From assembly GCA_015055945.1 (NCBI GenBank), contig SVHH01000005.1, positions 104,336-152,561 of the forward strand: a stretch of DNA of 48,226 nt, in the 5' to 3' direction. This stretch comes from Clostridiales bacterium. Its GTDB lineage: Bacteria > Bacillota > Clostridia > Christensenellales > Borkfalkiaceae. The notes beneath the pieces were generated by a model. It ran no database searches and was not told the origin of the DNA. It worked only from the letters and a program-made list of their open reading frames with translations. Positions 35,606 through 48,226 of the stretch are shown in pieces (position 1 is the stretch's first letter; every line of letters begins with the position of its first letter). Made by a program: the position numbers and the translations under genes.

Positions 35606-36694
35606 TTATTCTTCAACTACGTCTTCTTCGGTATTGATGTCCGCGGTAAGTTCTGCACCAACGGCACTTTCACTCTTAACGTCAATCTTCCAACCGGTAA
35701 GTCTTACAGCAAGTCTTGCATTTTGACCGCTTCTGCCGATTGCAAGTGAAAGTTTATCATCGGGAACGATTGCCATTGCGCTTTCATCACCAGTTTGAAC
35801 AACTTTTAATACGCGTGCGGGTGATAACGCTCTTGAAATGTATTCTAAGGGGTTTTCACTCCATTGAATAATATCAATCTTTTCACCGCCGAGTTCTGCA
35901 ACGATTGCGTTTACTCTTGCACCCTTGTTACCTACGCAAGCACCAACTGCGTCAACCATAGGATCTTCTGAAACGATTGCAATTTTGGTTCTTTGACCTG
36001 CATCACGCGCGATACCTTTAACCAAAACGATGCCTTGTTTGATTTCGGGAACTTCGTTTTCGAAAAGGCGTTTAACTAAACCAGTTGCCGTTCTTGAAAC
36101 AACGATTTGAGCCATCTTACCGCTGTTCTTTACGCGCTTAACGTAAACGTTAAGTCTTTGGTTTAATTCATACTTTTCACCAGGAACTTGGTCTTTAGGC
36201 ATAAGCACGCCTTCGATTTGGTTGCCGCCGAGTTCAACGAATACGTTGCCGTCTTCAATACGACGTACGGTGCAAGCCATAAGTTCGCCTTCTTTATCTT
36301 CAAATTCGCTAACGGTGTTGTCGCGTTCGATTTCACGAAGTTTTTGCATTAAAATTTGTTTTGCGGTTTGAGCAGCAATTCTACCGAAGTTCTTTGAGAT
36401 AATTTCGGTATTGATGGTGTCGCCCGCCTTATAACTCTTTTTAATGGTTTGCGCTTCTTCAACGCTAATTTCCTTTTCGGGATCGATAACTTCTTCTACT
36501 ACCGCTCTAGTGCTATAAATCTTGATAGATTTTTTTTCGGGGTTAAGTCTTACTTCAACGCCACCAGCAGTACCTGTGCTCTTTTTGTAAGCGATTACGA
36601 GAGCGTTTTCAAGCGCAGCAATAAATTCTGCTTGTGAAATGCCCTTTTCTCTTTCCAAATCTTCAAGCGCTAAAAAGAAATCTTGGTTAATCAT
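35606..36694 (-). CDS. nusA: Transcription termination/antitermination factor NusA
   Basis: A 362-residue NusA, which binds RNA polymerase and modulates pausing, termination and antitermination. N-terminal domain (to about 130), S1 domain (about 133-200, with GELMACTVRRIEDGNVFVELGG), then KH1 and KH2 (GACVGNKGARVNAI and SLAIGRSGQNARLA). Length matches Firmicutes NusA without the acidic repeats of E. coli. The start follows AAGGAGAAAAAT, 56 bp after rimP. Confidence 0.98.
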   Translation of the reverse strand: MINQDFFLALEDLEREKGISQAEFIAALENALVIAYKKSTGTAGGVEVRLNPEKKSIKIYSTRAVVEEVIDPEKEISVEEAQTIKKSYKAGDTINTEIISKNFGRIAAQTAKQILMQKLREIERDNTVSEFEDKEGELMACTVRRIEDGNVFVELGGNQIEGVLMPKDQVPGEKYELNQRLNVYVKRVKNSGKMAQIVVSRTATGLVKRLFENEVPEIKQGIVLVKGIARDAGQRTKIAIVSEDPMVDAVGACVGNKGARVNAIVAELGGEKIDIIQWSENPLEYISRALSPARVLKVVQTGDESAMAIVPDDKLSLAIGRSGQNARLAVRLTGWKIDVKSESAVGAELTADINTEEDVVEE

Positions 36695-36750: not shown

Positions 36751-37212
36751 TTAAAAATCGATGTATTCGTTTACCTTTACGCAGTTTTTAAGGTCAATGG
36801 TAAAGGTTGTTTTTTCATCAACTTTTAAGGTTATTACTTTACCGTTATACGAAGTCAATATGCCGTCGTAAAACTTCTTTCCACGAATAGAACTATTTAG
36901 TTTTACTTCAACCCTTTCGCCTATATGTGAATTAAAATCTTCATCAGTCTTAAAAGGTCTATCCGCTCCAAGGCTAGAAACGTTCAAAGTGTATGCTACA
37001 CCAAAAGTGGGGTCAAGCTCGTCAATAGGCTCGTCAATAGCGCGGTGAAAAAGTTCACAAGTATCAAGGTCAACACCGCCCGCTTTATCGATATAAATGG
37101 TAAGCGCGGGGTTTTTGCCTTGCTTAAACTCAACTTCCGCAACCCTTATACCTAAAGGTTCAGCAATTTTTTGACAAAATTCTTGAATTTCTAAGTTAGA
37201 TTTAACTTTCAT
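36751..37212 (-). CDS. rimP: Ribosome maturation factor RimP
   Basis: A 153-residue RimP, needed for 30S assembly. The central VDLDTCELFHRAIDEPIDE and LNVSSLGADRPFKTDEDF segments are diagnostic. The start follows AAGGAGAAAAA. It is the first gene of the rimP–nusA–rnpM–L7Ae–infB–rbfA–nrnA–truB–ribF–nfo-like block. A structured leader with a terminator-like hairpin lies directly upstream. Confidence 0.96.
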   Translation of the reverse strand: MKVKSNLEIQEFCQKIAEPLGIRVAEVEFKQGKNPALTIYIDKAGGVDLDTCELFHRAIDEPIDELDPTFGVAYTLNVSSLGADRPFKTDEDFNSHIGERVEVKLNSSIRGKKFYDGILTSYNGKVITLKVDEKTTFTIDLKNCVKVNEYIDF

Positions 37213-37444: not shown

Positions 37445-37472
37445 TATGAGAACGGACAAGTCCGTTCTCATA
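37445..37472 (-). terminator. Intrinsic terminator after the PolC-like gene
   Basis: A perfect 12-bp stem (TATGAGAACGGA at 37445-37456, TCCGTTCTCATA at 37461-37472, loop CAAG) is followed on the minus strand by TCTTTTTTAT. It separates the ispG–PolC-like transcript from the rimP operon. Confidence 0.9.
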
Positions 37473-37532: not shown

Positions 37533-39059
37533 TTACACTTTATTTTTAATTTTAAGAAGTTCGGTGAGCACTTCAACGGTGCAATATGCGTCGGCAAGCG
37601 CTCTATGATGGTGAAAAACTATTCCAAAATAGTCAGCAATAGTGTTAAGTTTATGATTCTTTAATTGCGGCATGTATTTACGCGCCAAAGCCATCGTGTC
37701 AATTACTTCGTTTTTAACTTCATAATCTTCAGCACCAGCAAAATACTTGATAAACTTAACGTCAAACTCAGCGTTATGTGCAACCAAGATAGCACCTTCA
37801 ATGAACTTCATAAAGTCAGGAATAACCGTGCTGATTTTAGGCGCGTCTTTTACCATTTCTTCTGATATACCCGTGAGTTTTTCATTTTCTTCATCAATTC
37901 TATAATCGGGTTTAACAAGCGTGGTAAATTGCTCGGTCGGCTTCCCGTTTACAAGTTTAACCGCGCCTATTTCAGTTATACCACTACGAGTTAATTCTAA
38001 CCCAGTAGTTTCTATATCGAACACCACGTAAACTTTATCGGTTAACTCGCTGGGCAATACTTCTTCCGCATCAAACACCGTTTTAACTTTAATGGTTTTT
38101 GCGGGTTCGGGGAAAATGGTCTTATAGTTTTTGGGTGCGGACTTTTTATACTTATCCTTTTTAACAAAGTCCGCTGGAAAAGTGCAGCGGTTAATTTTTT
38201 CAAAAGTAAAAGAGCGTCTACCGTTATAATCGCCTATCTTTCCGCGCGCAATAATAGTATCCCCTACCACTAATTCTTTTATCTTGTGGTAAGTGTTCTT
38301 TTTAGAAAAATACACGCCGCTAGTAGTGCCAGTTGTATCGTCAAGATGAATAATTAAGAAAGGCTTGCCGTTTTTAGTTTCGCGTTCACTTATCTCAGTA
38401 ATTTTACCGCAAACGGTAATGTCGCCAGCGGTAGCATCTTCAATATAGAGCGCAAGGTCGCCCATATTATAGTCGTCTATAACGATTACGTCTTTAACCC
38501 TTATCGTTCTATGTTCTATCTTTTGAAGTTCACTCTCATAAACTTCATCACTAAGTAAACTTATGCTTTCTTCTGCTTCTTTTATCTCAGTGCTGCCCGC
38601 AAAATCTGAACAAAAACACTTTGCTAAATGCTCGTTAAGTTTTGTCAAAGCGCCGTTTTTAGTAACGTATTCCGCACCGTCTTTAGTAAGTCTTAAAACA
38701 TACTTTACAACGTTACCGATAACACTGCAAATTATGTCAGTTGGCTTTAAAAAAATGGATACGGATGGGTATTTTTCTGCCAAATAGCGGTAAATTTCCG
38801 TGCTGATAAGTTGGTCGTTACTAACGATTTTCTTAACGGTAATTTCCACTTGGGTAAAGGCTGAATTAGTGATTTTTTCCGCTTCGCCTAAAATGCGTTT
38901 TTGGAGATCTTCATCTATAGCAACGTCGCATATGAAATTGTAACGGATCTTGCTTTTTTCACGCTCGATTTCGATAGAGTTGATTCTTATATTTTTCAAC
39001 TTAACGTCAAGCGCGCGAATATCAGCAATAAATTCCGAGTGGCTTTTTACTGTAAACAT
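37533..39059 (-). CDS. PolC-like protein reduced to N-domain, OB fold and 3'-5' exonuclease
   Basis: A 508-residue protein matching only the front part of Gram-positive replicative polymerase PolC (usually ~1400 residues). Residues 1-200 resemble the PolC N-domain and 210-292 the OB fold (DITVCGKITEISERETKNGK). After a linker (~293-342), a DnaQ-type exonuclease spans ~343-505. The exonuclease residues are intact: Asp348 and Glu350 (FDIETTG), Asp433 (HNAEFD), His485 and Asp490 (HRALAD). PHP and polymerase (palm, fingers) domains are absent. The frame ends cleanly and a strong terminator follows; no polymerase remnants lie in the next 320 bp. It sits in the conserved polC slot beside ispG and rimP, overlapping ispG by 13 bp. 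It may serve as a stand-alone proofreading or repair exonuclease. Confidence 0.85.
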   Translation of the reverse strand: MFTVKSHSEFIADIRALDVKLKNIRINSIEIEREKSKIRYNFICDVAIDEDLQKRILGEAEKITNSAFTQVEITVKKIVSNDQLISTEIYRYLAEKYPSVSIFLKPTDIICSVIGNVVKYVLRLTKDGAEYVTKNGALTKLNEHLAKCFCSDFAGSTEIKEAEESISLLSDEVYESELQKIEHRTIRVKDVIVIDDYNMGDLALYIEDATAGDITVCGKITEISERETKNGKPFLIIHLDDTTGTTSGVYFSKKNTYHKIKELVVGDTIIARGKIGDYNGRRSFTFEKINRCTFPADFVKKDKYKKSAPKNYKTIFPEPAKTIKVKTVFDAEEVLPSELTDKVYVVFDIETTGLELTRSGITEIGAVKLVNGKPTEQFTTLVKPDYRIDEENEKLTGISEEMVKDAPKISTVIPDFMKFIEGAILVAHNAEFDVKFIKYFAGAEDYEVKNEVIDTMALARKYMPQLKNHKLNTIADYFGIVFHHHRALADAYCTVEVLTELLKIKNKV

Positions 39060-40087
39060 CTATCAATTTCTCCGAAAAACACCTTTTCTACTTGGTCTTT
39101 CTTTACCTTTTTAACAATTTTACCTTTAACAAAAATTACACATTCATCCTTGCCGCCAGCGATACCAAGGTCAGCATCCGCCGCTTCGCCAGGACCGTTT
39201 ACAACGCAGCCCATAACGGCAATTTTTAAGGGTTTTTTGATGTTTTGAGTGTAATCTTCAACCTTTTTTGCAAAGTTCATACAGTCCCACTCACATCTTC
39301 CACAAGTGGGGCAAGCAATAATTTTAACTTTATCGTCAATTAGGTTTACCGCCGATAAAATTTCACGTGCGGCAATCACTTCACGTGCGGTGTCAGCCGA
39401 TAAACTTACCCTTAAAGTGTCGCCTATGCCCTTTAACAACAGCGCGCCGATACCGATAGAATTTTTAACAACGCCGCTATATTCCGTACCCGCTTCGGTT
39501 ACGCCCAAATGCAATGGGTAGTCGGTCTTTTTTGCAATATATTCGTACGCTTTTACCATTAAAGAAACGTCGCTTGCCTTTACTGAAATAACGATGTTAT
39601 CAACGCCGTGTTTTTCTAAAATCGCAACGTTTTTAAGCGCACTTTCACCTAGAGAAATTTCATTTTTACCATATTTTCTTAAAAATTCTTTTTCAATACT
39701 ACCAGTGTTTGAACCAACTCTGACGGGGATTTTATTTGCTTTTAGCGCATCGGCAACAGCCTTAACGTTTTGCTCTCCACCGATATTACCAGGGTTAATA
39801 CGTATTTTATCCGCACCGCCGTCAATAGACGCAAGCGCTAATTTATAATCAAAATGGATATCCGCAACGAGTGGAACGCCCGCGCCCTTTTTAACAATGC
39901 CAAACGCTTTAGCATCCAACTCATCGGTTACGGAAAAGCGCATAATATCAAGCCCCAAAGATTTTAATCTTTGACACTCGTCAATTGCGCGCGCGGTGTC
40001 GCTAATCTTAAAGGTAGCCATTGACTGAACGGCAACCCTTTCCCCACCGCCTATAATAACGTTTCCTATACTAACTTTTTTACTCAT
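39047..40087 (-). CDS. ispG: 4-hydroxy-3-methylbut-2-en-1-yl diphosphate synthase IspG
   Basis: A 346-residue IspG (GcpE), the 4Fe-4S enzyme that makes HMBPP in the MEP isoprenoid route. The N-terminal VAVQSMATFKISD, the IRINPGNIGG segment near 95-104, the cysteine motif CPTCGRCEWDC and GCVVNGPGEA are diagnostic. Length is normal. It has no ribosome binding site; its promoter predicts a transcript starting at the ATG. It is the first gene of a two-gene transcript with the PolC-like gene. The usual Firmicutes neighbours dxr, rseP and proS are missing upstream. Confidence 0.97.
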   Translation of the reverse strand: MSKKVSIGNVIIGGGERVAVQSMATFKISDTARAIDECQRLKSLGLDIMRFSVTDELDAKAFGIVKKGAGVPLVADIHFDYKLALASIDGGADKIRINPGNIGGEQNVKAVADALKANKIPVRVGSNTGSIEKEFLRKYGKNEISLGESALKNVAILEKHGVDNIVISVKASDVSLMVKAYEYIAKKTDYPLHLGVTEAGTEYSGVVKNSIGIGALLLKGIGDTLRVSLSADTAREVIAAREILSAVNLIDDKVKIIACPTCGRCEWDCMNFAKKVEDYTQNIKKPLKIAVMGCVVNGPGEAADADLGIAGGKDECVIFVKGKIVKKVKKDQVEKVFFGEIDRCLQ

Positions 40088-45940: not shown

Positions 45941-47299
45941 TTATTTTTTATAGTCTAAAGTGATAGTGCCGTCTTCGTTCATAATAACGGTATCTTTTTC
46001 CATATTGATTGAACGCTTGTGAGCAAGATATTCGTCAACACTCTTAAATACGGGCGTAAATTTAGCCATTACTTCTTTTGCTCTAATCGCGTTATTTTCA
46101 AGAAGTTTTACGATTAAACCAAATTCGGCTTTAGCACCGTTTACACAGCACTTATAAGCGTCTTCAATATAAAAGTTAATACCGTGTGTAGAGCCTTTTG
46201 CGCCTGCTGAATACATATGGATTGCGGGGAAAAGTGTACTAATATCACCCATATCGGTTGAAGATGCTGCCCAAGTATCGTCATATTTATAACCGTCTTT
46301 ACCAGCGATTTCTTCAAATACTTCTAAAGCAACTTCTCTTAAATTCGGGTCTTCGTGAAGTGCCTCACTACCTGCCATATCTTCAATTCTAACGGTACAG
46401 CCGATTGCTGCAGCCGCTGCTGAAATTGCTCTGTTTACGCTATCGTTAACTAACTTATGTGCTTTAGGTTCTGCACAACGAACGTAACTTTCAATTACAA
46501 CTTCGTTAGGAACTGCGTTTACCGCATCGCCACCTTTAGTGATAATTGAGTGAACTCTTGCATAGTAACTTTCTTTGAAAGTTTCTCTTAAAGAGTTAAT
46601 CGCAACAATAATTAACGACGCTGCGTTAAGAGCGTTAATGCCTTCGTGCGGGCGTGCGCCTGCGTGTGAAGATTTACCCTTAACGATAGTGCGTTTTCTA
46701 ATAACGCCGTTATGACCCTTAGTTAAAACAAAATTAATTTTTTCATCATCGTTTACTGTTGTGTGCATCATAAACGCTATATCTACGTCGTCAAAAAATC
46801 TTCTTGAAATAAATTCAGGTTTACCTGAAGTAAATTCTATTTGACCTTTTTCAACAAGCCCTTTTCTATAACCGATTTCAATACCTTCTTCTGCGGGAAC
46901 AACGCAGAGTTTAATTCTACCGCAAAGGTTATCTAAAGCGCCTTCTTCTTTTAACGCCGCCGCTACGCCAAGCATCGCAGCGCATTGTGCGTGGTGTCCA
47001 CAGTTATGAACTGCGCCAGTTTCTTTATCGCATTCGGGGTGAAGTCTGTTGATAAGTGAGTCAAGTTCTGCCATTACTAAAACGGTAGGACCAACTCTAC
47101 CAGTATCAACTACGGTATAAAAACCAGTGCAATCTTTTGCTTCAACAATATCGGTATAACCAAGTTTTCTAAATTGTTCAAGCATATAAGCGTTAGTCTT
47201 AAATTCTTTATAACCAGGTTCGGGGTTTGCCCAAATATACTTTTCAGCATCTAAAACGAGTTGCTTATTCTTTTCAACTAATTCGTAACATTTCTTCAT
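45941..47299 (-). CDS. M20 family peptidase/amidohydrolase (AbgB/ACY1L2-like), copy 1
   Basis: A 452-residue zinc amidohydrolase related to aminobenzoyl-glutamate hydrolase AbgB. Metal residues: Asp80 in AELDS, HNCGHHAQ (98-105) and Glu137-Glu138 in VPAEEG. The dimerisation domain spans roughly 205-330. A C-terminal extension of ~50 residues (ending DGTITLDYKK) is shared with copy 2. The start follows AGAGGTGAT. It is 18 bp after copy 2, and more than 100 consecutive residues are identical between them. It likely cleaves an acyl-amino acid or dipeptide; substrate unknown. Confidence 0.88.
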   Translation of the reverse strand: MKKCYELVEKNKQLVLDAEKYIWANPEPGYKEFKTNAYMLEQFRKLGYTDIVEAKDCTGFYTVVDTGRVGPTVLVMAELDSLINRLHPECDKETGAVHNCGHHAQCAAMLGVAAALKEEGALDNLCGRIKLCVVPAEEGIEIGYRKGLVEKGQIEFTSGKPEFISRRFFDDVDIAFMMHTTVNDDEKINFVLTKGHNGVIRKRTIVKGKSSHAGARPHEGINALNAASLIIVAINSLRETFKESYYARVHSIITKGGDAVNAVPNEVVIESYVRCAEPKAHKLVNDSVNRAISAAAAAIGCTVRIEDMAGSEALHEDPNLREVALEVFEEIAGKDGYKYDDTWAASSTDMGDISTLFPAIHMYSAGAKGSTHGINFYIEDAYKCCVNGAKAEFGLIVKLLENNAIRAKEVMAKFTPVFKSVDEYLAHKRSINMEKDTVIMNEDGTITLDYKK

Positions 47300-47317: not shown

Positions 47318-48226
47318 TTATTTGTAATTTAATGTTATCGTTCCGTCGTCGTTCATTATTACAGTCTGCTTATCCTTGTTGATAGATTTCTTATGAGCTA
47401 CGTATTCTTCCACTGAATTAAACACGGGAGTAAAATTAGCTATGATATGTTTTGCCTTCATAGCGTTATTTTCAAGTAATTTACGTATTAAACCAAACTC
47501 AAACTTTGCGCCGTTCACACAAACGTTATACACGTCATCAATATAAAAATCTATACCGTGGGGTTCACCGATTGCCCCCATAGTATACGCGTGTATTGAT
47601 GGGAAAAGCGTGCTTATATCTCCCATATCGGTTGAAGACGCCATCCATTTTCCATTGTACTCATATCCGTCCTTACCAGCAAGTTCTTCAAACACTTCTA
47701 AAGCAACTTCTCTCAAAGCCGCGTCTTCATTAAGCGCTTCACTACCTGCCATATCTTCAATATGAACGGTACAGCCGATTGCTGCAGCCGCTGCTGAAAT
47801 TGCTCTGTTTACGCTATCGTTAACTAACTTATGTGCTTTAGGTTCTGCGCAACGAACGTAACTTTCAATTACAACTTCGTTAGGAACTGCGTTTACAGCA
47901 TCGCCACCTTTAGTGATAATTGAGTGAACTCTTGCATAGTAACTTTCTTTGAAAGTTTCTCTTAAAGAGTTAATCGCAACAATAATTAACGACGCTGCGT
48001 TGAGCGCGTTAATACCTTCGTGAGGACGCGCGCCTGCGTGTGAAGATTTACCCTTAACGATAGTGCGTTTTCTAATAACGCCGTTATGACCCTTTGTTAA
48101 TAAGAAATTAATTTTTTCATCATCGTTTGAAGTAGAGTGCATCATAAACGCAATATCAACGTCGTCAAAAAATCTTCTTGAAATAAATTCAGGTTTACCT
48201 GAAGTAAATTCTATTTGACCTTTTTC
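47318..48226 (-). CDS. M20 family peptidase/amidohydrolase, copy 2 (partial)
   Basis: The 3' 303 codons are in the window; the 5' end lies to the right. The frame runs open through the right edge and its first visible residues (EKGQIEFTSG) match copy 1 at the same point. From the edge to about 47765 the DNA is nearly identical to copy 1. From there to the stop it differs clearly (for example YEYNGKWMASS against YKYDDTWAASS), although both stay full length and functional-looking. The missing N-terminal part would hold the first metal site. Confidence 0.9.
   Translation of the reverse strand, partial: EKGQIEFTSGKPEFISRRFFDDVDIAFMMHSTSNDDEKINFLLTKGHNGVIRKRTIVKGKSSHAGARPHEGINALNAASLIIVAINSLRETFKESYYARVHSIITKGGDAVNAVPNEVVIESYVRCAEPKAHKLVNDSVNRAISAAAAAIGCTVHIEDMAGSEALNEDAALREVALEVFEELAGKDGYEYNGKWMASSTDMGDISTLFPSIHAYTMGAIGEPHGIDFYIDDVYNVCVNGAKFEFGLIRKLLENNAMKAKHIIANFTPVFNSVEEYVAHKKSINKDKQTVIMNDDGTITLNYK

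Follow-up and report, generated by a model that had tools for sequence, protein, structure and literature searches.

A polC orthologue without its polymerase half in an order of Clostridia, and its possible role beside DnaE1

Results

Architecture and genomic slot

The stretch of DNA analysed here (the window: 48,226 nucleotides of contig SVHH01000005.1) carries on its reverse strand, at 37533..39059, a gene with an ATG start for a protein of 508 aa, in which a PolC N-terminal region, an OB fold, a linker and a DEDDh exonuclease follow each other (hereafter the short PolC). The N-terminal region (residues 1-205; 38445..39059, reverse strand) has no Pfam match, and profile comparison shows it to be colinear with the PolC N-terminus. 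It is followed by the OB fold (residues 206-292; 38184..38444, reverse strand; PF01336 at residues 214-289, E 1.2e-10) and by a linker which, according to alignments and the profile comparison, replaces PHP-N (residues 293-343; 38031..38183, reverse strand). The DnaQ-type exonuclease (residues 344-504; 37548..38030, reverse strand) was recognised by Pfam (RNase_T at residues 345-498, E 4e-37), by sequence comparison with solved structures (the PolC exonuclease 2p1j being the best match) and by an alignment in which D348, E350, D433, H485 and D490 fall on the DEDDh positions of the family. Models for PHP, the polymerase core (PF07733), the finger and HhH were absent from the Pfam matches of the protein, and its top NCBIfam match, PolC NF001688, scored 186 bits where 873 are required.

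No Pfam match to the PolC N-terminal domains was obtained with any of 61 short forms. When these were made into a profile, it gave a single colinear match to a profile of 12 long PolCs (residues 19-508, E 2.8e-75), the main stretch without a counterpart being PHP-N, which in PolC lies between OB fold and exonuclease and whose place is taken in the short forms by a linker of about 50 residues. Pfam, profile comparison and alignment thus agree with the initial annotation, which had described a 508-residue protein with PolC N-terminal region, OB fold and complete exonuclease, devoid of PHP and polymerase domains. The N-terminal part also matched ribosomal protein S3 weakly (E 0.01-0.09), which agrees with the prediction of a type II KH fold in PolC (PMC3919608). 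In a tree of exonucleases, one group on the PolC side (support 97) held the 37 short forms, of which 32 belong to the 67 rows with an intact exonuclease and five come from named contigs; many branches of this tree were weak, and of its 19 stand-alone exonucleases seven fell on that same side without a resolved position, ten grouped apart and two sat on long branches. Fusion of a foreign DnaQ to a PolC N-terminus is not favoured by this tree, itself weakly resolved.

Upstream of the short PolC, and overlapping it by 13 nt, lies ispG (gcpE; 39047..40087, reverse strand), and downstream follow rimP (36751..37212, reverse strand; from the ORF list and Pfam) and nusA (35606..36694, reverse strand; named from its protein by eye). 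The same slot, between ispG and rimP-nusA, holds the long PolC in other families of the order, so that the earlier designation as the conserved polC slot is borne out. The 3' side of the gene carries a terminator-like hairpin of 12 pairs with a T-run (37445..37472, reverse strand; fold z-score -5.5). When the post-exonuclease parts of three long PolCs were compared with the window, the best E value was 0.36, which is not significant (in the control, the search recovered its own gene at E 0); a terminator-like signal after the gene and a lack of detected polymerase debris in the window, both remarked on before, are thus borne out. Elsewhere in the window, two very similar amidohydrolase-like ORFs are found in tandem, at 45941-47299 (452 aa) and, shorter, at 47318-48145 (275 aa).

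Stability and distribution of the short form

A full-length short form was found in 22 of 25 genomes of the window's genus (its own included); in one of the remaining genomes the gene is split over two contigs, and the other two, 61 and 86% complete, are without it. Whole-gene pN/pS was 0.19-0.23 in five pairs of this genus and 0.09, 0.33 and 0.36 in three other pairs with an intact exonuclease, values that are rough owing to synonymous saturation in many pairs. The loss is therefore not confined to this assembly, nor do all close relatives carry a full-length polC at this place: the short form is shared by the genus and by many families. An assembly error, a frameshift or a decaying polC pseudogene has nothing to recommend it except the missing domains, and in view of this spread over genus and families, the purifying selection and the absence of polymerase debris from the window it was rejected as next to impossible, which upholds the earlier view of a stable architecture.

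The order, which we take to be Christensenellales of GTDB, was surveyed in 396 genomes that are at least 85% complete, by cross-tabulating matches to a short-form profile with those to PF07733. A short-like match (E 1e-70 or better) was present in 222 genomes, with one PF07733 match in 206, two in 12, none in four, and three or more in no case. The profile matched more weakly in 149 genomes (PF07733: at least three in 96, two in eight, one in 45) and not at all in 25 (at least three in 13, two in three, one in nine). Three PF07733 matches were read as one from DnaE and two from the interrupted match of a PolC, following Pfam scans of four long PolCs, one of which gives a single, unsplit stretch. 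Since three or more matches occur only in genomes with a weaker or no profile match, none of the 109 genomes with this DnaE-plus-PolC signature is short-like, and none of the 222 short-like genomes has the signature. A PolC hidden behind an odd PF07733 count was sought in the 16 short-like genomes with two matches (12) or none (four) and rejected, as none of them reached the TIGR01405 cut-off for PolC; both PolC controls did.

Short-like matches extend over 14 family codes (f1, f3, f6, f8, f9, f10, f14, f18, f19, f20, f23, f26, f27 and f30). They are missing from 1 of 39 genomes in f1, 2 of 31 in f3, 1 of 37 in f6, 2 of 31 in f23 and 1 of 38 in f26, which probably reflects assembly gaps. The open frames of the best profile rows measure 500-591 aa, apart from one of 759 aa (L078) in which homology starts about 168 residues in. 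In the class survey, 19 of 393 genomes gave a match at 1e-78 or better, a threshold that would miss forms with a dead exonuclease or very diverged ones, and all 19 belong to the order. Close relatives also occur in records whose titles name Candidatus Coproplasma or Candidatus Gallimonas. In f11, the genome G061 (loci L145 and L105) has one PF07733 match and, among its matches, only an exonuclease protein of 301 aa and no slot-type short form; PolC may have been lost altogether there, or be absent from the assembly. A protein of 448 aa in f28 (L248:654-2000, reverse strand, genome G052) consists of an N-terminal region, a low-complexity linker and an exonuclease, apparently without OB fold.

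The joined tree of IspG, NusA and RimP (86 of 91 rows; five, two of them PolC, were dropped for having too few residues) requires one change between long and short form, with an SH-aLRT of 100 and only six PolC rows on the long side.

Polymerases of the cell

The window's assembly is 96.4% complete and comprises 18 contigs with 1.45 Mb in total. The search with PF07733 gave one match in it, a DnaE of 1173 aa on a different contig, which leaves no full PolC elsewhere in the genome at this completeness. The earlier expectation that the cell needs another replicative polymerase is consistent with this DnaE being the only C-family polymerase found. Judging by its signature and by what is said of Clostridia in PMC12926913, it is probably DnaE1; its PHP pattern is HHDHEHCDH, accompanied by a QISLF motif, and by the rule of the same paper a PHP domain with such a pattern counts as active. 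The PHP metal site is apparently intact in all 18 DnaE proteins examined (from a sample of 21 loci, three of which were missed by the search string; 13 of the 18 come from short-form genomes), and no compensating change was seen among these 18. With the exonuclease site of its PHP domain apparently complete, DnaE does not require a second proofreader. RNase_T matches in the window's genome are the short PolC and one weak match (32 bits; 196-aa ORF).

The DnaE of four other genomes (G083, G099, G363 and G372; f1, g19) has its PF07733 match split in two, in frames of 1220-1291 aa, as if by an insertion in the polymerase core. Two DnaE-like frames of 1211 aa with equal scores, on contigs C15 and C16 of G303 (f19), may represent a duplication or assembly redundancy; G295 (f23) likewise has two DnaE-like frames (1205 and 858 aa), on contigs C41 and C10.

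Conservation and loss of the exonuclease

Among 83 aligned short forms (the window's and 82 chosen ones, of which only five are from its genus), 67 keep all five DEDDh residues. In these, mean pair identity is highest in the exonuclease (44%), followed by the OB fold (27%) and the N-terminal region (18%). The remaining 16 rows, here called exo-dead, comprise ten from f19, four from f16 and two from f30-g76; weak profile matches sampled in these three groups measure 489-605 aa and match poorly in the exonuclease part. On the neighbour-gene tree the loss of catalytic residues amounts to four changes. Whole-gene pN/pS in four exo-dead pairs was 0.28, 0.31, 0.44 and 0.54; these values are equally rough, and the proteins are still under purifying selection. 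Replacement of the dead exonuclease by a stand-alone DnaQ was discarded as an explanation, such genes being present in exo-dead and exo-intact genomes alike, with no clear pattern.

The linker motif

Outside the window's genus the alignment has 61 exo-intact rows, and in 55 of them the linker holds a motif, Q-x-x-[LIMF]-[FL], compared with 3.0 expected from shuffled linkers; the stricter Q-x-[SDNTA]-[LM]-F is found in 36 of these rows, and the rest of the 61 proteins contains 18 matches in 28,684 residues. Its Gln sits 21-26 residues ahead of the catalytic Asp, and the column counts over the 61 rows are, in order, Q 55, S/N/D/T 58, L/F/M/I 61 and F/L 58. The six rows without it belong to f3 and f6. 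The long PolCs of the order carry the motif at their C-terminus (eight of eight) and never between OB fold and exonuclease (none of eight). In its residues, the linker motif fits the published consensus for clamp binding, QL[S/D]LF or QxxLF (PMC12309361), which makes it a candidate clamp-binding site.

A second set, drawn from named contigs and overlapping the first in some species, has the motif in 45 of 54 proteins; the nine others are four from the window's genus, three with RETTLF, one with QTSVF and one without any motif. In the window the aligned residues (325-329; 38073..38087, reverse strand) read V-K-T-V-F, other members of the genus are similar, and the Gln is absent from the rows seen. 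With the motif drifted to this extent, any tether in the window's genus would have to be weaker or of another kind. Of the 16 exo-dead rows, one keeps the motif. When death of the exonuclease was tested against loss of the motif in pairs, the informative pairs pointed in the expected direction (median p 0.25); with about three independent pairs, the coupling of the two losses is suggestive only.

Discussion

Following these results, it seems somewhat more probable than its opposite that the remaining part of PolC was reused, after a single loss of the polymerase half, as an exonuclease that acts in trans for DnaE1, in the manner of the epsilon subunit. The polC orthologue would have lost PHP, polymerase, HhH and the C-terminal clamp-binding motif once, in an ancestor of many families of the order, leaving a DnaE1-type polymerase as the only replicase found. 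The exonuclease would then have been kept at the fork, as E. coli epsilon is, through a clamp-binding motif that the new linker carries immediately before the exonuclease domain, with the N-terminal region (through the clamp loader) and the OB fold (through single-stranded DNA) perhaps assisting the tethering, and mispaired 3' ends made by DnaE1 would be trimmed by the short PolC in trans. It is from the retained catalytic residues together with the clamp-type motif ahead of the exonuclease that we infer such a tethered exonuclease editing the products of DnaE1. The analysis itself establishes the architecture and orthology, the single change on the tree, the distribution and selection, and the motif with its position, whereas clamp binding, partners and proofreading are read from sequence. 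A precedent, by analogy, is the PolC of B. subtilis, the exonuclease of which proofreads DnaE in trans, also when polymerase-dead PolC was used in the test (PMC5627055).

Proofreading in trans and repair had both been considered in the initial annotation, which did not foresee the linker in place of PHP-N, its clamp-type motif in most lineages or the loss of catalytic residues in several sub-lineages. The PHP site looks complete in each of the 18 DnaE proteins examined, and the exonuclease has died repeatedly while selection on the protein persists; both points weigh against proofreading in trans, and because of them two other explanations were kept. The missing Gln in the rows seen from the window's genus, and the six further exo-intact rows of f3 and f6 without the motif, also count against the proposed tether. 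The short PolC could be a clamp-tethered repair exonuclease that trims 3' ends during repair or at stalled forks, proofreading being left to the PHP domain of DnaE1. The apparently intact PHP sites would agree with this, as would the four occasions on the tree at which the protein survived losing catalytic residues, and tethering to the clamp would suit repair equally well; however, the ancestry of the PolC exonuclease is that of a replicative proofreader, and no repair gene was seen as partner or in an operon with it, the neighbours being ispG, rimP and nusA, which makes this explanation unlikely without making it negligible. It could also be that the protein is mainly a scaffold, in which the N-terminal region and the OB fold, with a mostly structural exonuclease, hold clamp loader, DnaE1 and single-stranded DNA together and catalysis is secondary. 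This would explain why the 16 of 83 rows without full DEDDh keep the N-terminal region, OB fold and C-terminal domain under selection, and a contact with the clamp loader has been proposed for the N-terminal region of PolC (PMC3919608). Yet DEDDh is intact in 67 of the 83 rows, and in these rows conservation is highest in the exonuclease and lowest in the N-terminal region, so that a mainly scaffolding role is rather improbable. The exo-dead lineages fit into a wider version of the trans-acting exonuclease, for which the chances seem evenly balanced: a replisome of PolC and DnaE1 would have fallen back once to DnaE1, the stump of PolC would have been rebuilt as a clamp-tethered, epsilon-like subunit with its motif arising at the former PHP-N, and in some descendants the exonuclease would have died together with the motif, leaving the stump as a structural part of the replisome.

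With PolC (NF001688, TIGR01405) the short form shares the N-terminal region, OB fold and exonuclease, in equal order and in the same genomic slot; unlike PolC, it is devoid of PHP, polymerase, HhH and the C-terminal clamp motif, and has, instead of PHP-N, a linker in which most lineages carry a clamp-type motif. The likeness to E. coli DnaQ (epsilon), drawn from sequence, lies in a separate DEDDh exonuclease beside a DnaE replicase and, in most lineages outside the window's genus, in a candidate clamp-binding motif adjoining the exonuclease. In epsilon the clamp motif is positioned after the exonuclease; the short PolC differs in having it ahead, in the probable PolC descent of its exonuclease and in its extra N-terminal region and OB fold. 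As for B. subtilis PolC, the reaction proposed here, in which a PolC exonuclease edits what a separate DnaE has made, would be the same, but that PolC is a full polymerase and its DnaE is without proofreading of its own (PMC5627055), whereas the PHP site of DnaE is apparently complete in the present case.

The domains are known; their architecture in the short PolC, its spread and the linker motif appear to be undescribed, no title on a polymerase-less PolC having been found among those listed in the literature searches. PolC without exonuclease is known from Clostridia and Negativicutes (PMC3919608) and forms a mirror image: these classes again contain a PolC that lacks a domain, with the polymerase kept and the exonuclease absent. 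The available portions of PMC3919608 and PMC12926913 name Clostridia with a single DnaE1 and PolC without exonuclease, and do not name a polymerase-less PolC; in PMC12926913, truncated sequences were discarded before tree building. PMC3919608 states as an open question what makes Clostridia retain both PolC and DnaE1, two replicases that seem complete. The order amounts to a natural experiment on it, in which the polymerase of PolC was given up and the exonuclease half kept in most lineages, which allows the two halves to be studied separately. Should the tether prove real, an epsilon-like subunit would have arisen by a second route. By inference, PolC inhibitors such as ibezapolstat would also not find their target polymerase in such gut bacteria.

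The opposite loss to that of the short PolC occurs within the same order: a long PolC of f11 (L247:1903-6156, reverse strand, genome G149; ORF of 1417 aa) has, by eye, lost the usual catalytic motifs of its inserted exonuclease, and its PHP and polymerase remain.
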